Shown in pieces: positions 25,440 through 40,904 of a stretch of 41,468 nucleotides of DNA. The translations under genes were made by a program, and so were the position numbers. How positions within the stretch are numbered: the first letter of the stretch is position 1; each line of letters begins with the position of its first letter. This stretch comes from Coriobacteriales bacterium (GTDB lineage Bacteria > Actinomycetota > Coriobacteriia > Coriobacteriales > Atopobiaceae): positions 1-41,468 of the forward strand of contig JAQXQO010000101.1 in NCBI GenBank assembly GCA_029101205.1, in the 5' to 3' direction. The notes beneath the pieces are model-generated. The model saw nothing but the letters and a program-made list of their open reading frames with translations. It was not told the DNA's origin and searched no databases.

Positions 25440-28400
25440 CTACGACCTGCGTATGAACTCGCAGATGGCGCGCACGATGGAGGACACCTGACCGGGATCC
25501 ACGTTCACGGGCGCGTCGTTCATGGTGTGCGACAGGGCGGGTAGCCCGTTCTCGTCCATGCCCATCACCGTGAAGGACCTCACGCGGGAGCGCATGGCGG
25601 GCGTGGCGTCTGTGTCGGTCCAGCCGTAGTCGATGGTCTGCAGGTCCAGGTGCAGGTCCTGGGCGGTCTTCGTGAAGAGTCTGAGACTCCTGCGGTCGGC
25701 GCGGCGACCGTCGTCGCGGCCCTCGCGCGTCAGAACCACAGGGGCACCGGCGCCGATGCTGTCCAGGTTCACCAGGAACGCTCCCCTGATGTCACGGCGG
25801 AAGTTCGCGAGGAACGACTTGATGCCGGCGTGGCCCACGCTGGAAGCGCCGACCGCCACGAACCACACGTCGTGAGACACAAGGTAGTCGTCGCCCATTT
25901 GGAGGATGGCATCCTGCGCGTCCTCGTCGTCCGGCACGTCCTGAGCCTCATCCTGCACGGCGTCGTCGGCCATCTGGTCGGCAGTCGCGTTGGCGGGCAT
26001 CTCCTGGGCGGGCTCGTCCGTCGGCTGCTGCACGTCGGGGTCGCGCAAGTCAGAGCGAACGGCTGCGCCGCCCTTCCAGTTCATCCTGCGGTTGCCACGC
26101 TGGTCGTCGCTGACGTCCATGCCCTCGGTATCCTCTCCGGCAGTGTCGTCGTTCTCGTAGTCGTAGGGCTCGGCCTCGTCGTAGTCGTCGTACTCGGCGC
26201 CTTCTGCCAAGGGGTCCTCCTCCTTGCCGGAGGGGTCAGGCAGGTCACAGAGAGCTGCGCGGCGAGCGATGCCCGACGTATTGATGGGAGGCTCATACGA
26301 GGACTTCCCCCACGAGGGGTCATCGATGGGCTTGGGGGCCTTTCGGCGCGGATAGCCATGGGCAGAGGAGACTGCAGGCTCGTATCCCTCCGAGATGGTG
26401 TCCAGCCCTGAGGTGTCCTTCGGCAGTATGTCGGAGCTCTCCTCATCGTCGTCGAACTGGAGGTAGCTGCCACGCTGGTCCAGGTCGTAGTCGTCGTCGG
26501 CCGTCGGGGCGTCGTTCGGCTGGTCAAAGTCGTAGTCCGCGTCGAGGTCGTCCAGGGCGTCCGCGTCGCTCGGGAGGTAATCCTCGCCCCTCACTTCCTC
26601 GAACTCGCCTGCCGCGCCCTGCTCGGGGCGCCTCTGTGCGCGTTCGCCATCGTCAGCCGTGGAATTGTCGTACTCGCGCTCGTCCGTGTAGGCGTCCTCC
26701 TGCTGACTGCCGTCATCGCGCGACGCGTCGGCGTTGTCGGGTTGGTTATCCGCATCGTACTGAGCCGCCTGCTGATCCGACGCGTCGTCGTAGTACTCAT
26801 CGTAGGAGCTGACGGCAGCAGGGTCTGCCTGGTCGCCGTGACCAGACTTGTAGCCGCTGAACCAGCCCTTCAGTCGGTCGAGGAAGCCATGTCCCTTTGT
26901 GCCGTTGTCCCTCGGGGAGACCTGGCCCTCGTCGTAGTCGCCGTAGGAGCCATCATCGCTCCATTCATCCTGCGACTGGCCGCTCATGCGGTCGTAGTCC
27001 GCATAGGCGTCGTCCGAGTAGCCCTGGTCGTCCGCCTGCGAGTCGTAAGCCTCGTCGGACTCGTAGTACTCCTCACCGCTCTGGTAGTCGGCATCCGCGG
27101 GCTCGCCGTCGGACGTGGAGTCGTCCACGGTCTCCTGGGCGTACTCCTCGTCCTCCACGCTGGACTGGTCCCAGCTAAGGTCGCTCGCCGCCTGCTGGGC
27201 GGACTGGTCGTCATCTGTCTGACCTGTCGCCGTAACATCCGTGTCCACCAGGTGCGGCACGGGCTTGGCAGGCTGTGCTCCAGACGTTGCCGGCTCGACC
27301 GGCGCGTCCTTCGAGGAGCTGCGATTGCTCGACGCAGCGGCGACGTTGCGGCGACGCGCCGCCTGCCTACGCGGAGACTCCAGCGTATCCAGGCGCACGG
27401 GCTCAGGAACCCCCTGGCCCTTGTCCTGCGCTGGGGTTTGATCCTCCGCGTCGTCCTTAGGATTGGCGGCAAGCTCGCCTTCGGAGGCGAAGTCGTCCTT
27501 GGGCGCCTCGGATGGCGTCACGTCCCAAGGCTGATCATCCTCGGACACTTGGGCGCCCTCGTCCTGCATGTTGTCCTCAGACGTCTGGCTGTCAGCTGCC
27601 GCATCATTCTGCATGGAGGAACCGGTGTCGGATGCAGCGACAGGATCGCTAGCCCCCGCAGCCGGCCGTGCCTCGACGGAAGCGTCCTGCTCATCCGCCT
27701 GCGGAGCGTACTCCAGATCCTCCTCAGACTCGTCCTGGTCGGACGCAGCTATCTCGGTATTGTCGCGCGCGCGATCCTCGTCGTATGCAGGGGCCTGCTT
27801 CTGCGCGGCGTCGGTCGCGCTGGAATCCTCAGTCTGCTGCGTGGGCTCCTCGGCTGCGGCGCCGTCGTCGCCGTAGCCCTCGTCGTAGTCGTCGTACTCC
27901 TGGCCGCTCTCGTCTGCATACCCGTCGGTGGCAGGATACTCGTCCTCGTAGTATTCATCCGAGGCACCGGCATAGACGGCATCCTGATAGTAGTTATCGG
28001 CGGCAGAGCCCTGCTGGGCCGCGTCGGCATCGTCTGACACGCGGCGCGGACGAAGGTCACCCGGACGCACGGTCCTCAGCTCGCTGCCATCGTCGGCACG
28101 CCAGGCCTCGACGTCCTCGTCGCCCTTGTATGTGGTCTCAAAGCTGGAGTAGTCTGCCCCCTGCAGGTCCTTGTTCTCACCGCGCGCGATGACGGGCTTA
28201 CCCACACGGGAGAACTTCTCCTTCAGCTTGTGGAAGAAGCCCATGCCCTTCTTCTTTGCCTTTTGAGCGGCAGAGGAGGCAGCGCTCTTCGCGGAGGCCT
28301 CCGCGTTCAGGCGCACTGCGGGGTTCTCGTTCAGGTCCTGCGTGGCCTCGAGGTCGGACGGGCTCTCGGCCGCTTCCTGCGTCGACTGCTCGTCGTCGGC

Positions 28401-29795
28401 CTGGTCCTCGTAGTACTCATCCGGCGCGGGCTGATAGCTGGAGTCGTCCTGGTCAGTGGTCTGGCTGGGCTGCTCCTGGTCGTCTGCCGCAGGCACAGCC
28501 TGGGCGTCATCCTCCTGTGCCTGGCTGTAGTCGTCATAGACCTGCCCATCGGAGTAATGCTGCTCATCGTAGTACGCCTGCTGATCGGCTTGGTCCGCAT
28601 TGGCGTCGTACGACTGGTCGTACGCGGTGGCGTCAGTCGCCGACGCATCGGCATAGGTCTGATCCGCCGCCGTTTGATTCGCTTGGTCAGCAGGAGCCTG
28701 CTCGTCATATGCCTGCACGTCCTCGGCGGATGCGTCGGCCTCCGGCTGCTCGGCGGTCTCCACCTGCTGCCCCTGCGCTGCCGGCTCCTGGGGGGAAAGG
28801 TCTTGGGCCTCATCGGGTGCCCCTGCGTACTCGGGCTCGACGCGCTCGTACAACGCGCCATCGACGGCCTGGTCGGCAGGGACCGTGACGACCTTGGGCT
28901 CCTCGTACACGATCTGGCACGTGGGAGGCAGGATGCCCAGGGACTCCAGGACCTCCTTGCCGTGGCGGACGCCGCTGGGCTTCTCGACCACCTGCACCAT
29001 GCGGGGCTTCTGGTCCTCGGACGCCCTACGCACGTAGGGCCTGCCCTCGGCGGCAGCATCCACGCGATCGGCACCAGGACGCACCTTTGCCAGAACCGAG
29101 AGCATGGCAGCCACGGACGCCTTGTTGTCGTTGGAGCCGGACGTGCACGCCGCGAAGCGCTCCATGATGTTTGCGATGGCCACGACCACCAGGGGTATGC
29201 ACGCCACCAGGCCGACGACCCACAGCAGCACACGCACCGCAACGGGCAGGAACCCGAACACCTGGATCAGCGCCATCAGGGCAGCCACCAGCACGCAGGG
29301 GAACGAAGCCTTGTACAGCGTTGACTGGTAGCGGGCGAACGCGTTCCCGTAGAGGTAGTTCTCGCGTGGAGTGTCGTAGTGCGCAACGATCACGATGGGA
29401 CGAGAGCCCTTCGTGACCTTGTCGCCCGTGGCTCGATGCACGCCCACCACGTTCTGGCTGCGTTCCACGGGACCGAAGTTCTCAAAGACGTTATAGCCCT
29501 TGTGGACCATGACCAGCAGCACGCCGGCAGCCAGGGCCAGCACCAGGCCCACAGCCCTTACGGCGCCACCGGCCACACCAGTCAGAAGCACGCCCAGCAG
29601 CAAGACGATTGCCAGCACGTCGGGCATCAACTTGCCCAGGGGATGGGTGTCGAACTCCTGAATCGTCGGCTCAAGGCCGTGGTCCTTCATTATCTCGACC
29701 AGGGTTTCCGCCGCCTGGAACTCCTCTTGACTGTTTGCGGGTGCAATTCCTATCTCGTTGTCGAGATAGTCCATGTAGTCGCGCGTCTTTGCCAT
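25440..29795 (-). CDS. M28-peptidase-like membrane protein with a huge acidic disordered insertion
   Basis: A 1,451-residue protein. The N-terminal part has the first half of an M28 (Zn aminopeptidase-like) fold, with VAHYDTP (His139, Asp141) and SNDNKASVAAML (Asp223), and four TM segments at about 59-78, 80-98, 165-183 and 187-209. Residues about 300-1290 are low complexity, rich in Asp, Glu, Gln, Ala and Tyr, with two short basic amphipathic islands. The C-terminal part returns to M28: VWFVAVGASSVGHAG (about 1311-1325), LVNLDSIGAG (Asp1345) and LPALSHTMND (His1423). The expected Glu-Glu pair at the ASS position is Ser1318-Ser1319, so activity is doubtful. The ATG at 29795 has AAGGA 6 nt upstream. 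Usual M28 domains are 200-300 residues, so the insertion dominates. Membrane-attached; function unknown. Confidence 0.85.
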   Translation of the reverse strand: MAKTRDYMDYLDNEIGIAPANSQEEFQAAETLVEIMKDHGLEPTIQEFDTHPLGKLMPDVLAIVLLLGVLLTGVAGGAVRAVGLVLALAAGVLLVMVHKGYNVFENFGPVERSQNVVGVHRATGDKVTKGSRPIVIVAHYDTPRENYLYGNAFARYQSTLYKASFPCVLVAALMALIQVFGFLPVAVRVLLWVVGLVACIPLVVVAIANIMERFAACTSGSNDNKASVAAMLSVLAKVRPGADRVDAAAEGRPYVRRASEDQKPRMVQVVEKPSGVRHGKEVLESLGILPPTCQIVYEEPKVVTVPADQAVDGALYERVEPEYAGAPDEAQDLSPQEPAAQGQQVETAEQPEADASAEDVQAYDEQAPADQANQTAADQTYADASATDATAYDQSYDANADQADQQAYYDEQHYSDGQVYDDYSQAQEDDAQAVPAADDQEQPSQTTDQDDSSYQPAPDEYYEDQADDEQSTQEAAESPSDLEATQDLNENPAVRLNAEASAKSAASSAAQKAKKKGMGFFHKLKEKFSRVGKPVIARGENKDLQGADYSSFETTYKGDEDVEAWRADDGSELRTVRPGDLRPRRVSDDADAAQQGSAADNYYQDAVYAGASDEYYEDEYPATDGYADESGQEYDDYDEGYGDDGAAAEEPTQQTEDSSATDAAQKQAPAYDEDRARDNTEIAASDQDESEEDLEYAPQADEQDASVEARPAAGASDPVAASDTGSSMQNDAAADSQTSEDNMQDEGAQVSEDDQPWDVTPSEAPKDDFASEGELAANPKDDAEDQTPAQDKGQGVPEPVRLDTLESPRRQAARRRNVAAASSNRSSSKDAPVEPATSGAQPAKPVPHLVDTDVTATGQTDDDQSAQQAASDLSWDQSSVEDEEYAQETVDDSTSDGEPADADYQSGEEYYESDEAYDSQADDQGYSDDAYADYDRMSGQSQDEWSDDGSYGDYDEGQVSPRDNGTKGHGFLDRLKGWFSGYKSGHGDQADPAAVSSYDEYYDDASDQQAAQYDADNQPDNADASRDDGSQQEDAYTDEREYDNSTADDGERAQRRPEQGAAGEFEEVRGEDYLPSDADALDDLDADYDFDQPNDAPTADDDYDLDQRGSYLQFDDDEESSDILPKDTSGLDTISEGYEPAVSSAHGYPRRKAPKPIDDPSWGKSSYEPPINTSGIARRAALCDLPDPSGKEEDPLAEGAEYDDYDEAEPYDYENDDTAGEDTEGMDVSDDQRGNRRMNWKGGAAVRSDLRDPDVQQPTDEPAQEMPANATADQMADDAVQDEAQDVPDDEDAQDAILQMGDDYLVSHDVWFVAVGASSVGHAGIKSFLANFRRDIRGAFLVNLDSIGAGAPVVLTREGRDDGRRADRRSLRLFTKTAQDLHLDLQTIDYGWTDTDATPAMRSRVRSFTVMGMDENGLPALSHTMNDAPVNVDPGQVSSIVRAICEFIRRS

Positions 29796-30235: not shown

Positions 30236-30272
30236 GTATTACCTGCGTATTTTTACGTATTTCACGTATTAC
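30236..30272 (+). promoter_or_regulatory. Phased GTATT repeats, probable operator in the WYL leader
   Basis: GTATT occurs at 30236, 30247, 30257 and 30266, spaced 11, 10 and 9 bp, the first and last extended to GTATTAC. The array lies downstream of the -10 candidate and ends just before the ribosome site AGAAAGG, so a protein bound here would block transcription or translation. Confidence 0.55.
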
Positions 30273-30286
30273 AGAAAGGTTCTGCA

Positions 30287-31267
30287 GTGTCAGACGATTT
30301 CATCGAGCTCTCCGGCAACGACACAGAGGCCGAGCGTCTGCTGTCCATAGCCTTGGAATTCGAGAACGCCAGCGCCCCGCTGAGCTCCGACTACGTCAGG
30401 CGCAGCTTCTACGCCAACATTCAAAGCGACGAGTCGGCCCGAAAGGCATTCATGCGCGACAGGCAGAAGCTTGTTCTATGCGGCGTCGTGATATCCCTCG
30501 TAGCGAAGGACGGTACAAAGTCCGGCTGGACCATCAATAAAGAGGCTACTTTTGCGAACCCCTGCGCACTCAACGCAAAGGAGGCACTGGCTATTGACCT
30601 GGCATGCTCGCCTCTAGCTAGCGATCCATCTTTTCCGTATGCAGGCGAACTCAGGCAGGCTCTGGCAAAGATCGACCGCGCCTTCGATGCCCGGACACCG
30701 GTGCGCCTTACGAAGGTGGATGCCTCCAGGCCATCCGCCCTGCCAACCTTGGAACAGGCCGCCTCGCAGCATATGGGAGTCGAAGTTTCCTATCAAAAGG
30801 CTGACGGCAGCACTGTCCAAAGGATGCTGGGCGTGCTGGGCTTCTATCCCTTGCGCGGTAATACATATGTAGTCGCAATGAACCTGGACCAGAGGGAAGT
30901 GGACCCACATGTGTACAACACCGCCCGCATTCAAACTGCTAAGGTTCATAAGTCTAGAACATACGAGATTCCCGTAGACTTCGACGTGCGGGACTACATT
31001 CGCCTCCCATTCCAGTTGGGACCGCGCAAATACACTGCGCGCTTCTTCGTTCCCGCGAATGTTGCAAGGAGCATGCAAGTCGCCAGCCGAGGAAGGGGCG
31101 TATTCTCAACAGCACCCGGCTCCGGTCTTATGTGGGACGTAGACGTCAGCAATACATGCGATGCCGCATCGTGGGCCATATCGCAGGGAATACGCCCTGT
31201 ATTACCTCGGGAACTCGCTACGAGCTACCGTTCGCTACTGGAGGGCGCGTTACGTAATGCAAAGTAA
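30287..31267 (+). CDS. WYL-domain transcriptional regulator 1 (PafB/PafC-like)
   Basis: A 326-residue regulator. The N-terminal winged-helix region (about residues 12-85) has the pattern LLSIALEFENASAPLSSDYVRRSFY, then SDESARKAFMRDRQKLVLCGV and GWTINKEATF, as in PafB/PafC proteins. The WYL domain (about 155-230) shows VEVSYQKADGS, LGFYPLRGNTYVVAMN and a terminal VHKSRTYEIP; the eponymous W-Y-L reads T-Y-V here. A WCX-like C-terminal part follows. It starts with GTG at 30287, with AGAAAGG 7 nt upstream. It overlaps regulator 2 by 11 nt, so both are made together. PafBC in mycobacteria is a DNA-damage activator; a like role is only analogy. Confidence 0.88.
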   Translation: MSDDFIELSGNDTEAERLLSIALEFENASAPLSSDYVRRSFYANIQSDESARKAFMRDRQKLVLCGVVISLVAKDGTKSGWTINKEATFANPCALNAKEALAIDLACSPLASDPSFPYAGELRQALAKIDRAFDARTPVRLTKVDASRPSALPTLEQAASQHMGVEVSYQKADGSTVQRMLGVLGFYPLRGNTYVVAMNLDQREVDPHVYNTARIQTAKVHKSRTYEIPVDFDVRDYIRLPFQLGPRKYTARFFVPANVARSMQVASRGRGVFSTAPGSGLMWDVDVSNTCDAASWAISQGIRPVLPRELATSYRSLLEGALRNAK

Positions 31268-32261
31268 TACATCTAATACATCCGCAGATAAGTCCACGCG
31301 CCGCCGCGCGCGGAGAAGTGGCAGGGCCAATGCCCTACAGGAGGCGCGCGACCTAGTGAGCGTGTTGGGCTCGTTGGCACAAAAGGGTGACACCGTCTCC
31401 GCAAAGGCGCTCAGCTCCAGGCTGGGCATCAGCCCGCAAGATGCCAAAAAGCTTCTTCTGCTACTGATGGAAGCCGGAGGCGAATACAGCGCCCCACTTT
31501 CCGTGTATCAAGAGAGCGACGACCAGCTCTCCATTGCCTTCGAAAACGCGACTGCAGGAAAGCCGCTCAGGCTGACGCAAAGCGAGTCGATAGCACTCAT
31601 GGCTGCATTGAATTACTTGAATGTGCCAGACGACGACCCTATCAGACATCATTTGATGGACTCGTATGGCCATCCCAGCGCGAGCGTAGCCCAGATCCAG
31701 AAGACCCTGGCTCCCGCCGTCACATCCGCCAAATCACAGGACCTCGTTGTCTTGACCTCGGCTATCGCGGACTCGGATGCCCTCACCTTTCTGTACCAGG
31801 GCGCCACAGACGCCGCGCAGCATAGTAGGTTGGTTGTCCCGCGCCGCATAACGTATGGCGACTCTGGCTGGTACCTGATTGCATACGACCTTAATCGTAA
31901 GGGAGACCGTACCTTCAGGGTCGATCGCATGCAGAACATTGCACGCAAGCCGATACCCGTCGACTGGAACGCGGATACGCGTAATACGCCATCCGAGGAG
32001 CCGTCAAGCAACACCGAAACACAACGTGTTACGTTGGTATTTTCCGACTCACGCTATCTGTCCCTGTTCAATTGGCCAGGTCTCGAGATAATACAGCGCT
32101 CCGTCAATTCCACCACGGCAGAAATACCGTATTACCCCAGTAGCGACTGGCTGCCGCGACATCTGGCGGCATGTGGTGGATCCGTTACCACAACGGATGC
32201 CGACTTGTCAGCTCGCGTGCGCTCTTACGTGCAAGAAGAACTAGACGCCATCGACAGGTAG
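31257..32261 (+). CDS. WYL-domain transcriptional regulator 2 (PafB/PafC-like)
   Basis: A 334-residue regulator. A Ser/Thr/Arg-rich N-terminus (residues 1-25) leads to a winged-helix region (about 28-90; ALSSRLGISPQDAKKLLLLLMEAG). The WYL domain (about 170-240) has DALTFLYQGATDAAQHSRLVVP, YGDSGWYLIAYDLNRKGDRTFRVDRM, a full WYL motif, and a WCX-like C-terminal part follows with VTLVFSDSRYL. The ATG at 31257 lies inside the end of regulator 1; a GGAGG stands 12 nt upstream, long but usable. The frame opens further left but without family residues. Its first codons contain two copies of the GTATTAC/TAATAC motif, and its AAT-ACA codons depart from neighbouring AAC-ACC usage. Confidence 0.88.
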   Translation: MQSNTSNTSADKSTRRRARRSGRANALQEARDLVSVLGSLAQKGDTVSAKALSSRLGISPQDAKKLLLLLMEAGGEYSAPLSVYQESDDQLSIAFENATAGKPLRLTQSESIALMAALNYLNVPDDDPIRHHLMDSYGHPSASVAQIQKTLAPAVTSAKSQDLVVLTSAIADSDALTFLYQGATDAAQHSRLVVPRRITYGDSGWYLIAYDLNRKGDRTFRVDRMQNIARKPIPVDWNADTRNTPSEEPSSNTETQRVTLVFSDSRYLSLFNWPGLEIIQRSVNSTTAEIPYYPSSDWLPRHLAACGGSVTTTDADLSARVRSYVQEELDAIDR

Positions 32262-32273
32262 CTTTTACCTGCG

Positions 32274-32508
32274 GTAATACACCTCTCAGCGAGATAATAC
32301 GATGAGTGTCCATAGTGCGTCGGGGCCTTCTGCCGTGCGGCGCGTCTCTGCCCTGCTCATTCTGCTGCGTATTACGGGTCCCTCGCGCCCTTCTCCACAA
32401 GGGTAAAAGAATCGCGTGCTGCCAGTCCATTTCCGACAGCACGCGATCTGTATTACCCGTATTACGAACACGCTGAAGGATCGCGGCCCATCGATGGTTT
32501 TGTATTAC
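32274..32508. repeat. Intergenic cluster of GTATTAC/GTAATAC motifs
   Basis: Exact copies occur at 32274, 32369, 32450, 32459 and 32502, with a TAATAC hexamer at 32295. The pair at 32450/32459 is head to tail at 9 bp. The stretch lies between regulator 2 and dinG and holds no gene. Confidence 0.7.
32404..32447 (-). terminator. Terminator after the DinG-type helicase gene
   Basis: ATCGCGTGCTG (32411-32421) is exactly complementary to 32437-32447; the minus strand continues TCTTTTACC. It lies about 90 nt past the helicase stop codon. Confidence 0.65.
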
Positions 32509-32539: not shown

Positions 32540-35500
32540 CTACTCGTGCGCGCTTCTCCACATCCCGATGAACCGACCGACGTTTGCCGTCTCCAAGTTC
32601 GTGCAGTTCCTTGAGGGCAGCGACCGCATGAAGTCGCGACCATACCGCTTCGTGACTAGGCGTGAATCAGCTAGCACCAGAATGCCGGAATCCGTGGAGC
32701 TCCTTATGAGTCTGCCAGCCGCCTGCTTCACTGAGAGCACGGCATCTGGCAGGGAGTATCGCCACCAAGCTCGGTCCTCTCTGAGCTCGCGTTCCTGCAC
32801 AAGCGGATCGTGGGGGCTGCTGAAGGGCAGCTTAGGGATTACGACGCAGCGCAGCGTGTCACCCGATGCGTCGAAGCCCTCCCAGAACGACTTCAACGCC
32901 ATCAGAGACAAGCTCTTCTCAGCAATGAAGCGCTCGCGTAGGCGCCTGGCGGACGTGGCACGATCCTGGCACACCAGCTCCAGTCCAACCTCCGAAAGGC
33001 GCGGAGCCAGCGAAGCGTACACCTGCTCCATCTCGCGGCGATTCGTGAACAGAGTCAACACCGAGCCATCCATTGCCTTGTGAACGTCAAACAGGAGGTC
33101 GGTCAGGCTGTCGACGTACCTGCGGTCGTTGGGTGCCGGCATGTCCTTAGCCACGATGACCGACATGTTGTGATCGTAATCGAAGCTTGAACTCAACTGA
33201 ACATTCTTGTATTGCCTGGGCGGAAGCGTATCCAAGCCGACGGCATGGTCGAAGTGGTTGAAGTTCTTGCCCACGGCCATGGTTGCGCTGGTAAACACGA
33301 CGCTCTTCATCGACGACAGCCACTTGGAGCCCAGATCGGCACCAACGTCCAGCTTTTGGGCCAGCAAGCCCTCCTGGCCAATGCGCTTCTGTTGCCTGAA
33401 CAGTCGCGCGGAGTACACATAGTCTTCCTGCGGCTCGACGACTATGAGCTTGATTCCGCCCAGAAGGTCGTCTAGGTTGCGGATGGGCTCCTGGAGGTCT
33501 CCTGCCAGCTGTGGCTCGGGAGCCTGGAGGGCATCCTGCGCCTGCTTCAGGAAGTGGACGCACTGCTGCAACCCCTCAATGCAGTCCGCTCCCGACCGTT
33601 TCACGGCATCCCACTCGTCAGACTCTCGCACCTTCTGGTCGATCCACAGGTTGATGCCGTCGTAGCCGTTAGAACGCCCCGCCAGATGCACCAGCTCGTG
33701 CACGCACTCAAAGAAGTCGGCCACCGTAACGCTGACCCTAGAGAGGGACGCAGCCGCCTTCGATAGCAGTGCTGTTATCAGCGTTCCGCCGTCTACACCA
33801 ACCGAACGCACCATCAGCGTATGGATGACGCCCGTCTTTGTGCCGCCCAGCAGCTCAAAGGCAGAACGCGCGGCGTCGCTGGAGACCTCGATAGCCCACT
33901 GCTTTCTGGCTTCGTCCTCGAAGCCATGTGCCTCGTCCACGACCCAGTGCCTTACGGGCGGCAGTATGGCGTTGTCGGCCGCAACATTGCGCAGCAGCAG
34001 AGAGTGGTTCGTCACCACGACGTCACTGCACGCGGCGCGCCGGCGGGCACCGTGAACAAAGCACTCATCGGGAAAGAAGGGACAGCGGTTGCGCAGACAA
34101 TCGTTCGAGCTGATGGTCAGCATCTGGCGCGGCACGTACCTCCAACGAATGCCCAGCGCATCCAGGTCACCGTCGGGCGACTGGCTGGCAAAGGCGTAGA
34201 CCACCGCGATGGCCGTCAACATGTCTGCTTCGATGGTATTGGGGGACTTGCCGGTGCCATCCACCTGCGAGAGCGGCAGGTCGTTCTGGACCGCGCGCTC
34301 CAGTCTGTGCAGACATGGATAGTGTTCGTAGCCCTTCAGGCTGGTGAAGCTGACGCCGTTCGGCAGGACGGCATCCAGGGCGGGCAGCTCATGCGATACC
34401 AGCTGGTCCGTGAGGGCGTTCGTCTTTGTGGCGACGCCCACCGTCACGTTGTTCATCTGGGCAAACAGCACCTCGGGCAGCAGGTAGGCAACGGACTTGC
34501 CAACGCCTGTGCCAGCCTCGATGGCCCGATGCGTGGACGTAGCCAGTGCATTGCGCACTTCTTGCGCCATGGCCACCTGCTCGCCTCGGCGCTCGTAGCT
34601 GTCGTACATCCTGCTGACGACCCCGCCGGGAGCGAAGGCGTCGGCTATCTGCTGCTCGGTCGGAGCATGAAGCAGCATGCTGTCGTCTCCGGCATCGGCG
34701 CGCTTCTGCTGCGCCGACGCATGGATAAGGTCGTGCCTGGTCGCCTTCAGCGAGAAGTGCGCTCCCTCGTCCTCAAGGGCCAGGTGCGAAAAGATGGGCC
34801 TGAACGCCCAGCTGACGTCTGGGTGCATGTCGGCCAGCAGTGACAAAAGGCCCTTCGGCAGCATGTCGAGCCCGCACAGGATGATGCGCCACATGCCGCA
34901 CAGCGCGTCCACGTCGTCAGTGGCTCGGTGCGTAACGGAGTCGCAGTGGAACGCATGGGCCATGTCGGCAAGCCTGTGAGAGCTCAGCCTGGGCAGGGCA
35001 ATGCGCGACAGGGCCAAGGTGTCAATCCAGTTGTCGCTGACCTCGGTGCCACCCGGCACCGCCTCGACGAACGTGCGGTCAAAGGTGGCGTTGTGTGCCA
35101 GCACCGGTACGCCACCCACGAACTCCGCCAGCTGCGCCACGGCTTCGCGCGCGTCAGGGGCATCTTGCACGTCCAGCTGGGTGATGTGCGTCAGACGCTG
35201 GATCTCTGGTGGTATGGGCGTGCTGGGGTGAACGAACGTCTGGAAGCGGTCCACGATCTCACGGCCGGACATCCTGGCGGCAGCAATCTCTATGAGCTCG
35301 CAGTCCCTGAACGAGAGGCCCGTGGTCTCCGTGTCCAGGACCACGATGTCTTCCTCCAGCAGACCGAAGTCGACGGTCTGAGCCTTCTGCTCCAGGCCCA
35401 TATACTTACGCCGAATGTGCTCGGGCGTTCCAGGCAAAAGAAGGGAGTCAAGAGTGACTTCTTGGCTCCCATTCTGTGAATCATTATGCGTGTTGCTCAT
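32540..35500 (-). CDS. dinG: DnaQ-like exonuclease fused to a DinG-family helicase
   Basis: A 986-residue fusion. The N-terminal DEDDh exonuclease (about residues 50-215) has Exo I VVLDTETTGLS (Asp56, Glu58), Exo II LAHNATFDRTF and Exo III HRATDDVDA. The XPD/DinG-like helicase follows with Walker A EAGTGVGKSVAYLLPE, four Cys in YPCLHR and CLRNRCPFFPDEC (iron-sulfur site), DEAH box WVVDEAHGFEDEA, and motif VI QAAGRLIRSSTDSG. Such proteins unwind 5'-3' and act in repair or on R-loops and G4 structures; the exonuclease fusion is common in Firmicutes. The start lies 9 nt after the ddl stop, so the two may be cotranscribed; the ribosome site is weak. Confidence 0.93.
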   Translation of the reverse strand: MSNTHNDSQNGSQEVTLDSLLLPGTPEHIRRKYMGLEQKAQTVDFGLLEEDIVVLDTETTGLSFRDCELIEIAAARMSGREIVDRFQTFVHPSTPIPPEIQRLTHITQLDVQDAPDAREAVAQLAEFVGGVPVLAHNATFDRTFVEAVPGGTEVSDNWIDTLALSRIALPRLSSHRLADMAHAFHCDSVTHRATDDVDALCGMWRIILCGLDMLPKGLLSLLADMHPDVSWAFRPIFSHLALEDEGAHFSLKATRHDLIHASAQQKRADAGDDSMLLHAPTEQQIADAFAPGGVVSRMYDSYERRGEQVAMAQEVRNALATSTHRAIEAGTGVGKSVAYLLPEVLFAQMNNVTVGVATKTNALTDQLVSHELPALDAVLPNGVSFTSLKGYEHYPCLHRLERAVQNDLPLSQVDGTGKSPNTIEADMLTAIAVVYAFASQSPDGDLDALGIRWRYVPRQMLTISSNDCLRNRCPFFPDECFVHGARRRAACSDVVVTNHSLLLRNVAADNAILPPVRHWVVDEAHGFEDEARKQWAIEVSSDAARSAFELLGGTKTGVIHTLMVRSVGVDGGTLITALLSKAAASLSRVSVTVADFFECVHELVHLAGRSNGYDGINLWIDQKVRESDEWDAVKRSGADCIEGLQQCVHFLKQAQDALQAPEPQLAGDLQEPIRNLDDLLGGIKLIVVEPQEDYVYSARLFRQQKRIGQEGLLAQKLDVGADLGSKWLSSMKSVVFTSATMAVGKNFNHFDHAVGLDTLPPRQYKNVQLSSSFDYDHNMSVIVAKDMPAPNDRRYVDSLTDLLFDVHKAMDGSVLTLFTNRREMEQVYASLAPRLSEVGLELVCQDRATSARRLRERFIAEKSLSLMALKSFWEGFDASGDTLRCVVIPKLPFSSPHDPLVQERELREDRAWWRYSLPDAVLSVKQAAGRLIRSSTDSGILVLADSRLVTKRYGRDFMRSLPSRNCTNLETANVGRFIGMWRSAHE

Positions 35501-37829: not shown

Positions 37830-38421
37830 GGCGGGCTTCCTATGATGGAACGTGACGACGGCCTCGAATCAGGCTCGGACGCAAGCTTGGTCCTTCGGAG
37901 TTGCAGACAAATCAGCCAAGCGAAGCGGGCCTCCCTAGCGATGGATTTCGATAGCCCGTAATACGCGTCACCGCACGACGTGACCTGTAGCACGGGGGCT
38001 AATACGGCTGTAGCAAGACGGTGCAATACGCGTTCCCGGCACCCCGTCTGCCTTTCGATGATCAGCGTCGCGCATTCTACCCACGAGCTCGGGCTCTCAG
38101 TACCTAAAACACGGACGCCAAAAACAAGTCCTACGCGTCCTCCTGGAAGGCTACGCCATGACTGCTTTGCTTCATCAGGAGCGCTCTGTGAATAGGCGCA
38201 GCGCAAGACGTATTAACCTGTGTTATTACCTGTTTTACCTGCGTAAATACGTGTTTAGTATCGGTACGGCGCAACCTCATGCCGCACCTCGTACTACAAG
38301 AAAATGCACCATGAATACGTCTGTCTTCGCCTGCGGAGCGCCAGACGATGCACTCCGAACGCATTAATGATCTCGGCTCAGCGCGGCAACCCGGCAAGCC
38401 TTCCCGCTCGCAGAAACCCGC

Positions 38422-38447
38422 GCCTATGTTTCACGTGAAACATAGGC
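38422..38447. promoter_or_regulatory. parS: parS centromere site
   Basis: The 16-bp core TGTTTCACGTGAAACA (38427-38442) is the canonical chromosomal parS bound by ParB, here with no mismatch. The palindrome extends perfectly to 26 bp (38422-38447). It lies about 0.5 kb downstream of parB. ParB would load here and spread, with ParA moving the complex to segregate the origin region. Confidence 0.95.
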
Positions 38448-38719: not shown

Positions 38720-38965
38720 CTAGTACCCCAGCGACTCCCACTGCGCCTCGGTTCGCGCCTGGTTCGAATGGTCTACGTTGTTCTGTGCCATGGTCTCCTG
38801 CACAATCGGCTTCACCACGTCCATGACGTTCTGGACGGTCTGCTTGGCCGTTGCCACGCGGTCCTGTATCTGGATGCGCTGCTCGTCGCTCAGACCATGG
38901 TTGTAGAACCAGTAACCACCCATCCCAATTGCGGCGGTGCAGAGCAAGAAGTGCCTCACCTTCAT
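38720..38965 (-). CDS. Small membrane protein coupled to parB, function unknown
   Basis: An 81-residue protein, not recognised. It starts MKVRHFLLC, has one short hydrophobic segment (about residues 5-22, FLLCTAAIGMGGYWFYNHG) and then a hydrophilic, probably helical region with repeated Gln/Val/Asp (RIQIQDRVATAKQTVQNVMDVV), like a short coiled coil. Its ATG overlaps the parB stop (ATGA), with GAGGA directly before it, which implies coupled translation. Its place behind parAB makes a membrane-linked segregation role conceivable, but this is speculation. Confidence 0.7.
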   Translation of the reverse strand: MKVRHFLLCTAAIGMGGYWFYNHGLSDEQRIQIQDRVATAKQTVQNVMDVVKPIVQETMAQNNVDHSNQARTEAQWESLGY

Positions 38966-39849
38966 TCCTCATCACTCCCAGCGAAGTCGTTCGTGCCGTC
39001 TAAACGGTTCACGAGCTGAGCAAGCTCTTCTTCTGAGGCAAACTCAATCTCGATACGGTTCTTTCCCCTGACCTGGCGCACCCTGACCTTCGTATTCAGA
39101 GCAGAGCCCAAACGCTTGGCTGCCGTCTGAAACGTCTGTGGTACTTGGCGCTTCTGCTTCGGCGCGGGTTCCGCCTGGGGACCGACAGAAAATAACGGAG
39201 CGAGAGTTTCTGTCTGTCTGACGGAAAGCCCTTCGGCTATCACGCGCTCCGCCAGCCGAATCCTGCCCTCATCGTCAGGTACCGACAAGATTGCGCGGGC
39301 GTGCCCAGATGACAGCTCCCCATCTCGCACGTATTCCTGTACCCGCTCTGGCAGCGCCAGAAGCCTCATCGCATTGGCCACGGCGCTCCTGGACTTCGAC
39401 AGGATGCTCGCCAGCTCTTCCTGAGTGAGCCCGTTCTGCTCCATCAGAAGCTGGTATCCCCTTGCCGCCTCCATGGGGTTTAGGTCTGTGCGCTGAAGGT
39501 TCTCGATGAGGGCTAGCTTCAGCACGTCCTCGTCGCTGATGTCCCGGATGGTCACGGGCACAGACTGCAGGCCGGCGCGGCGCGCCGCCTGATAGCGACG
39601 CTCGCCCGCCACGATCTCGCACCCGTCCCGGTCCTTCCTCACCAGGATGGGCTGCAGCAGTCCGTTCTGCCTTATGGAGTCGGCCAGCTCGTTCAGGGCA
39701 TCCTCGTCGAAGTGCTTGCGGGGCTGGTCCGGGTTGGGGTGTATCTGGTCCACGGGCAGCTCGGCATCGGCAGGGGACTCGCCAACCTCTCCGGCCGTCT
39801 CTCCAAGTAGGGACTCCAGCCCTCGGCCCAGGCCGCCCTTCCTAGCCAC
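38962..39849 (-). CDS. parB: Chromosome-partitioning protein ParB (Spo0J)
   Basis: A 295-residue ParB CTPase/DNA-binding protein. The N-terminus RKGGLGRGLESLL is the ParA-stimulating tail. The ParB/sulfiredoxin fold follows with IHPNPDQPRKHFDEDALNELADSI, the CTP motif GERRYQAARRAG and ENLQRTDLNPMEAARGY. The helix-turn-helix region is LTQEELASILSKSRSAVANAMRLLALP, and a dimerisation domain ends the protein. It overlaps parA by 8 nt. It should bind the parS at 38427, load as a clamp and spread. Confidence 0.96.
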   Translation of the reverse strand: MARKGGLGRGLESLLGETAGEVGESPADAELPVDQIHPNPDQPRKHFDEDALNELADSIRQNGLLQPILVRKDRDGCEIVAGERRYQAARRAGLQSVPVTIRDISDEDVLKLALIENLQRTDLNPMEAARGYQLLMEQNGLTQEELASILSKSRSAVANAMRLLALPERVQEYVRDGELSSGHARAILSVPDDEGRIRLAERVIAEGLSVRQTETLAPLFSVGPQAEPAPKQKRQVPQTFQTAAKRLGSALNTKVRVRQVRGKNRIEIEFASEEELAQLVNRLDGTNDFAGSDEE

Positions 39850-40642
39850 GCCGCACCACTTCCTTGGCCAGCTTCCCGTAGGCCAGGGCCCCCTTGCTCA
39901 CACGTGCGTACATGTTTATGGGCAGGCCATGGCTGGGAGCCTCAGACAGCTTCACGTTGCGCGGGATGATGGTCTTGAAGACCTTCTTGCCAAAGAAGTT
40001 CTGGACCTCCTCCACGACCTGCTTCGAAAGCGTTGTGCGACTGTCATACATGGTCATCAGGACGCCGAAGATCTCAAGGCCCGGGTTCATCTTCGCCTTT
40101 ACCATCTTCATGCTCTCCAGGAGCTTCGTGAGGCCTTCCAGGGCGTAGAACTCGCATTGGATGGGAATCAGCAGCGAGTCGGCGGCCACGAGCGCGTCCA
40201 CGGTCAGCAGGCCCAGCGAAGGAGGGCAGTCGATAAAAACGTAATCGAACTCGTCACGCACGGGCGCCAGGAGGTTCTTCAGACGCATCTCGCGGTTGTC
40301 GGCGTTCACCAGCTCGATCTCCGCACCGGCAAGCGAAATGGTGGCAGGGGCGATGAACACCGTGGGGCACGGGGTCGGCTGGATGATCTGGTCCAGCGGG
40401 ACGTCGTTCATCAAGCAGTCGTAGATGTCAGCGCTGATCTGGTCCTTGTCGACGCCAAAGCCACTCGTGGTATTTCCCTGTGGGTCGAAGTCGATCACGA
40501 GGACCTTCTTCTTGCCTTCGCCCAACGCAGCCGAGAGGTTGATGGCCGTGGTTGTCTTTCCCACGCCGCCCTTCTGGTTGATGATGGCAATGACGCTGGA
40601 GTTCCTGCCAGGCAGGCCTCTCTTTACCGACGTATATCCCAT
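39842..40642 (-). CDS. parA: Chromosome-partitioning ATPase ParA (Soj)
   Basis: A 266-residue Walker-type ATPase that binds DNA non-specifically and moves ParB-parS. Deviant Walker A: NQKGGVGKTTTAINL; A' VLVIDFDPQGN; Walker B YVFIDCPPSLG; and the IPIQCEFYALEGL region. The ATG at 40642 is preceded by AAGGAGGAG with 2 nt; the longer frame to 40738 carries no family sequence. It heads the parA-parB-small membrane protein operon. A GTAATAC motif lies about 52 nt upstream of its ATG (40694-40700). Confidence 0.96.
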   Translation of the reverse strand: MGYTSVKRGLPGRNSSVIAIINQKGGVGKTTTAINLSAALGEGKKKVLVIDFDPQGNTTSGFGVDKDQISADIYDCLMNDVPLDQIIQPTPCPTVFIAPATISLAGAEIELVNADNREMRLKNLLAPVRDEFDYVFIDCPPSLGLLTVDALVAADSLLIPIQCEFYALEGLTKLLESMKMVKAKMNPGLEIFGVLMTMYDSRTTLSKQVVEEVQNFFGKKVFKTIIPRNVKLSEAPSHGLPINMYARVSKGALAYGKLAKEVVRRG

Positions 40643-40904
40643 GTCTCCTCCTTCTGCGACGCTACAGTCGAGCGCTGGCGCCACGGGTCGGATGTAATAC
40701 TTTACACGCTCCCCAAGGCCGAATACCAGTTGCCGCAATCTTGCACTTCCAAACGCACCGAAGCGGCGAGCCCTATACCTGCGCGTCTATCAAACTGGCC
40801 ATTCGCTGTGACAGTATCCATCACAAACGAGACATGAATTCAAAAGCCGAGTCCGCCCGAAGCGTTGGCTGGGCCCCGCCGCAGAGAGTCCAGAATGGTT
40901 AATT

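Follow-up and report, generated by a model that had tools for sequence, protein, structure and literature searches.

A stretch of 2.27 kb in a Coriobacteriales genome is crowded with one 7-mer, GTATTAC/GTAATAC, which raises the question of what protein reads these sites and to what end. The stretch lies within a window of 41,468 nucleotides (the whole stretch of DNA analyzed here) from a draft genome, G000 (2.10 Mb, 174 contigs). An earlier note had described the cluster in and around a tandem pair of WYL regulator genes, taken it as the sign of a dedicated DNA-binding system and pointed to the WYL proteins as candidate binders and autoregulators. This interpretation is partly supported. Counts, shuffles and the genome background confirm the cluster, and a dedicated DNA-binding system is strongly supported by helical phasing, codon choice and conservation in 18 genomes. 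The part given to the WYL proteins did not survive comparison with relatives.

Motif sites around the origin

The 12 exact copies reported within 30236–32508 are all present, and the first 30 kb of the window holds none, as the earlier note also said. The whole window has 14 copies against 0.72 expected from window shuffles (maximum 4 in 100), the other two being at 37958 and 40694. For the 2.27-kb stretch (30236–32508), with the rest of its own genome as background, 0.03 copies are expected (Poisson P ~1e-27). The motif sites and genes of the window are as follows.

30236–30272, + strand: promoter-side array 5′ of WYL1, with GTATTAC at 30236 and 30266 and the degenerate GTATTTT (30247) and GTATTTC (30257), spaced by about 11, 10 and 9 bp
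30287–31267, + strand: WYL1, PafB-like WYL regulator (Pfam WYL; PDB relatives 9fnd/7p5x)
30858–30864, − strand: GTATTAC site in WYL1, where it reads GGT AAT ACA
31199–31205, + strand: GTATTAC site in WYL1
31257–32261, + strand: WYL2, PafC-like WYL regulator (start inferred; Pfam WYL; PafBC 6sj9, E=6e-9)
31264–31279, − strand: paired sites in the WYL1/WYL2 overlap, encoding the SNTSNT start of WYL2
31981–31987, − strand: GTATTAC site in WYL2
32129–32135, + strand: GTATTAC site in WYL2, at Pro-Tyr-Tyr codons
32274–32508, + strand: five GTATTAC sites in the WYL2–DinG gap (32274, 32369, 32450, 32459, 32502)
32540–35500, − strand: DinG-type exonuclease/helicase, convergent with WYL2
37958–37964, − strand: GTATTAC site about 0.46 kb from parS
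38427–38442, + strand: perfect parS, TGTTTCACGTGAAACA
38962–39849, − strand: parB, chromosomal Spo0J type (TIGR00180, E=1e-55)
39842–40738, − strand: parA (Soj), with the sequence KGGVGKTT
40694–40700, − strand: GTATTAC site in parA

The word is a 7-bp palindrome about a central A/T (GTA-W-TAC), in which orientation has little meaning. No promoter accounts for ten of the 12 copies, which fall within genes or between convergent 3′ ends; five of these (32274–32502) occupy the gap between the convergent WYL2 and DinG genes. The placing of the 12 sites stands, but not their restriction to the WYL pair, as sites recur round the whole origin region.

Pfam matches and PDB sequence relatives connect the tandem WYL1 and WYL2 with PafB and PafC; the HTH_PafC match of WYL2 is under the cut-off (27.4 vs 32). 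In the window the two genes are separate, with an 11-bp overlap, and several relatives seem to have both fused in one frame of 600–840 aa at the WYL locus (e.g. G002:C53:24609–25664), a likeness to the solved fused PafBC. Also in the window, an open reading frame of 1451 residues (25440–29795, − strand) has ends resembling an M28-type aminopeptidase and an interior of some 1000 residues of acidic, Tyr/Gln-rich low-complexity sequence; it has no Pfam match at 0.001.

Counted over all of G000, GTATTAC has 48 matches, near the 44 of the reversed word; this total includes three copies twice over, as contigs C46 and C90 overlap at their 5′ ends as reverse complements for ~140 bases. The word is thus of ordinary frequency overall but concentrated in place. 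A genome-wide regulon is not supported for G000, since totals equal the reversed-word control and close pairs occur at the origin only. The one other cluster, at the C46/C90 junction, lies beside gyrA across the origin and has five distinct copies within ~0.2 kb and one more 1.5 kb further. It is flanked by tRNA-Ala, tRNA-Ile, gyrA and gyrB on one side and by a 273-codon gene, a short gene and typA on the other. Since the window carries parB, parA and parS 6 to 8 kb from the WYL cluster, both clusters are origin-proximal.

In nine genomes with a long origin contig, the landmarks detected follow the order DinG, ddl, parB, parA, dnaA, gyrB, gyrA, the second-cluster 273-codon gene and typA, with the WYL pair adjoining DinG; these genomes have 11–29 GTATTAC copies against 1–5 expected. 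In a genome-wide search for close same-strand pairs, all fell on the origin contigs in G000 (7/7), G001 (8/8), G101 (6/6) and G092 (5/5), as did 12/15 in G029 and 3/4 in G100. G002 and G102 have no same-strand pair of the strict tested pattern anywhere in the genome; their single sites are nonetheless clustered. Genomes of the second genus in which the system occurs (see below) have many single sites elsewhere (118–231 in all). Arrays are found on the WYL/DinG side, the parS side and the gyrA side, and at dnaN-recF in some species. The sites occupy different genes in different species yet remain near oriC. In G029 five more GTATTAC copies stand close together ~12 kb past the WYL pair (L088, G029:C11:137455–137895), which widens the array region of that genome.

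RHH-TM and its co-occurrence with the sites

The 273-codon gene within the second cluster (G000:C46:136–957) is not part of the window: it lies across oriC from the WYL cluster, ~25 kb away, on the side of gyrA and typA. It encodes a predicted membrane-anchored ribbon-helix-helix protein, for which we coin the name RHH-TM. An N-terminal Arc-type ribbon-helix-helix (RHH) domain, MPKKPTTFSMRMPEDINDRIQSYAEEHQCTKAEAMSHFARAG, is followed by a second similar segment, AIVPADIRQKVQEYAKAHECSETEALGYYARLGI, which may be another RHH-like unit; then come an acidic region and, at the C-terminus, a hydrophobic helix. Pfam Arc (PF03869) matches 17 of 19 RHH-TM members at E<0.1; the G000 protein passes the cut-off (21.2 vs 20.4 bits) and the other members are weaker. 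The TTFSMRMPED strand is invariant among members. Each of the 19 has a single C-terminal hydrophobic stretch of 19 residues (mean hydropathy 2.65–3.33, elsewhere under 1), by which RHH-TM is predicted to insert in the membrane.

By sequence RHH-TM has no PDB relative, and DUF536 is absent from its Pfam matches. No cognate ParA ATPase lies beside it, the neighbors being tRNA-Ile/Ala, gyrA and typA; within the origin region we saw a single ParA, that of parAB. A phage origin was rejected, as viral contigs contain no relative. In the nearest sequence relatives found for the N-terminus, the RHH domain is joined to a minimal nucleotidyltransferase (GSFARG...SDIDLRL; L140–L147, L112, L114, L115). 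We found no description of such a membrane-anchored RHH protein in the open-access literature, which does not prove that none exists.

Of 140 family genomes covered by a profile search, 19 encode RHH-TM; three belong to one genus and 16 to another. Among 397 genomes of the order, no full-length relative occurs outside these two genera. A wider family was rejected, since weak matches in other genera are mostly RHH-nucleotidyltransferase fusions without the membrane helix.

WYL2 relatives are present in 44 of 60 related genomes. Among 30 WYL2 loci that we read, the motif cluster is found in exactly the four RHH-TM genomes (12, 9, 6 and 11 copies); the remaining loci lack it, with a single copy in one A+T-rich genome. 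At the WYL loci of the 18 RHH-TM genomes that have one, AATAC is the most over-represented 5-mer in 17 and the second in one; GTATTAC occurs 109 times against 3.6 expected and GTATTAT 52 times against 3.0. The 26 WYL loci from genomes without RHH-TM together have one GTATTAC against 1.1 expected. Close pairs were absent from the whole genome in eight of 12 genomes without RHH-TM, including the near relatives G010 and G017; in the other four, pairs exist and none of the listed places is in the parB/gyrB region.

The RHH-TM locus is itself motif-enriched in most genomes, weakly at the gene in some species (rank 14–33 at 6 of 19 loci). G001 has no site within 1.5 kb of the gene, the nearest pair being 2.3 kb away. 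At the RHH-TM locus of G093 (L097), another word is repeated, AAAGTCTGTA-like, with GTCTGTA present in 10 copies against 0.24 expected.

We used a gyrB tree for the species relationships, the WYL2 tree being too poorly resolved. Genera without RHH-TM (G010, G017) fall among those with it, so that joint gain or loss of protein and sites may have happened repeatedly, although the test does not reject one clade (p-AU 0.22).

Helical phasing and codon choice

Centre-to-centre distances were taken between GTATT sites in ~400 kb of DNA from motif-bearing genomes. They peak at 10–12, 21–22, 32–33, 42–43 and 53 bp and almost vanish at about 16, 27, 38, 48 and 59 bp, a phasing to the DNA helix with a period of ~10.7 bp. 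Rayleigh z is 164 for the 742 pairs at 8–64 bp and 17 at 65–128 bp, and the signal fades further out. As site pairs are not independent, a jitter control and per-genome values outweigh the nominal P: moving sites by up to 8 bp gave a Rayleigh value of at most 14, and single genomes gave, for example, 11 in the window and 23 in G029. For sites on opposite strands, phasing is sharpest when the central W of GTAWTAC serves as the reference point, to within half a base. This dyad supports a symmetric site bound by a dimer.

The sites have also left their mark on codons. At a conserved Pro-Tyr-Tyr in WYL2 (window 32129), all aligned RHH-TM genomes that keep the residues write them as CCG TAT TAC/TAT, which creates a site; 16 of the 17 motif-bearing genomes in the alignment have a site at this place. 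Where Pro-Tyr-Tyr/Phe is kept without RHH-TM, five of six genomes use CCC or CCT and TAC. Several further positions in the 3′ half of WYL2 show the same codon pattern. Selection at the DNA level keeps sites inside WYL2 through synonymous codon choice. In G001, five sites at the start of the gene after recF, which from our own reading of the sequence we take to be DUF721-like, dictate an Asn-Thr-rich N-terminus, and the start of WYL2 (31264–31279) is likewise dictated by sites. That sites shape the N-termini of both genes argues that they follow position, not gene function. Another G001 gene, directly upstream of dnaA (L080:13759–14907), encodes a histidine-kinase-like ATPase with a Pro/Gln-rich region.

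A candidate origin tether and known systems

Exact co-occurrence, a gene inside the second cluster and a fold suited to palindromes together lead us to a strong inference from sequence that RHH-TM is the binder of GTAWTAC (core GTATTA). We think it probable that this predicted membrane-anchored protein binds the arrays flanking oriC and tethers or positions the origin region at the membrane. Dimers of the N-terminal Arc-type RHH domain would occupy the short palindromes, and whole-turn spacing (about 11, 21–22, 32–33, 42–43 and 53 bp) would let neighbors bind next to each other along a single face of the double helix. The C-terminal helix would fix these complexes to the cell membrane, holding or positioning the origin region there next to ParABS. 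Tethering, with a role in segregation, is proposed as the most likely job because arrays occur almost only in the roughly 30–40 kb around oriC. Replacement of ParABS was rejected, as parB, parA and parS are intact in the window. That cells already have ParABS, with no evident need for a second system, counts against a tether. So do the weak enrichment at the RHH-TM gene in some species, the lack of strict pairs in G002 and G102, and the many single sites elsewhere in genomes of the second genus.

The main rivals to tethering accept RHH-TM as the binder and give it another task. One is that it mainly controls replication initiation or access to the origin, as a membrane-bound sequestration switch, with segregation secondary. 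The arrays do flank dnaA-dnaN-recF-gyrBA, and in G101 and G001 they enter the dnaN/recF-DUF721 region; however, the WYL pair, ~13–14 kb from dnaA, has the array of greatest density and conservation, and few sites adjoin dnaA itself, so we consider this unlikely. The other makes RHH-TM a transcription regulator, sequestered at the membrane, that controls its own gene, the WYL pair and neighboring genes, in keeping with sites upstream of both the WYL1 and RHH-TM genes. This is rather unlikely given the 10 copies that are intragenic or in the convergent 3′ gap, the change of site-bearing genes among species while nearness to oriC is constant, and the codon-level selection deep inside WYL2.

A different binder restricted to the same two genera is quite improbable. 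Co-occurrence by itself would allow it: both genera could stem from one ancestor, and any other lineage-specific protein could then show the same distribution. Against this, RHH-TM is encoded within the second cluster, its DNA-binding fold fits short palindromes in phased arrays, and no further candidate was seen. Binding and autoregulation by the WYL proteins, suggested by the overlap of the densest cluster with their genes, is hardly credible: most relatives lack the motif near the orthologous pair, the outcome that the earlier note had named as refuting it (26 related genomes with WYL orthologues and no RHH-TM, including G010 and G017), the cluster tracks exactly the genomes with RHH-TM, whose own locus also carries the motif, a second cluster lies ~25 kb away, and sites occur within parA, DUF721 and RHH-TM as well. 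The two proteins resemble PafB/PafC (6sj9; PMC6789036) and, rejected as binders on conservation, are best described as carriers of the array.

The preferred reading, an RHH-TM tether, matters because the holding or positioning of bacterial origins is known for few lineages, and here sequence alone points to a protein and to where and in what geometry its probable sites lie, which makes the idea directly testable. If it is true, the known origin tethers gain a fold, RHH combined with a membrane helix of its own; such a system would be seen to differ among genera of one family beside intact ParABS, and selection on the DNA would be seen to build a centromere-like array into an unrelated regulator's codons. 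Whether a tail-anchored RHH protein on phased GTAWTAC arrays, partly in coding sequence, constitutes a new type of origin–membrane linker alongside ParABS is in our judgment evenly balanced.

GTATTAC is unlike the 16-bp parS, and a canonical parS and ParB coexist with it in the window. The proposed tether would work in the manner of RocS, RacA or Noc, its closest known analogs together with RHH centromere proteins. RacA of Bacillus subtilis has an origin-proximal cluster of short sites that is centromere-like and anchors the chromosome to the cell envelope. The site cluster and the anchoring proposed here are similar, but RacA belongs to sporulation, is MerR-like and acts through DivIVA, whereas RHH-TM is an RHH protein with a predicted membrane helix of its own. 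RocS of Streptococcus pneumoniae links the chromosome to the membrane and works beside ParB (PMC11500499, PMC13042908). As predicted for RHH-TM, it is a small protein with an N-terminal DNA-binding domain, a middle region and a C-terminal membrane anchor. RocS, however, combines a DUF536 coiled coil with an amphipathic helix. RHH-TM instead has an RHH domain and a helix predicted to span the membrane, and its likely sites form a defined array round oriC; it falls outside the RocS family, and we claim no homology.

Noc, once bound to its sites, brings chromosomal DNA to the membrane, as proposed for RHH-TM, but it is a ParB-like CTPase with an amphipathic helix and its 16-bp NBS sites are spread over most of the chromosome (PMC8429893, PMC6657595); here 7-bp sites are clustered near oriC. 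RHH dimers on arrays of short sites are known from omega of plasmid pSM19035 (PMC4498918) and archaeal SegB (PMC12284271), and the chromosomal sites of SegB are largely intragenic (PMC12284271), as most are in the present arrays. RHH-TM nevertheless stands apart from the RHH partition proteins (omega/ParG/SegB): omega and SegB use a ParA-type ATPase and have no membrane anchor, whereas RHH-TM has a predicted anchor and no partner ATPase alongside.
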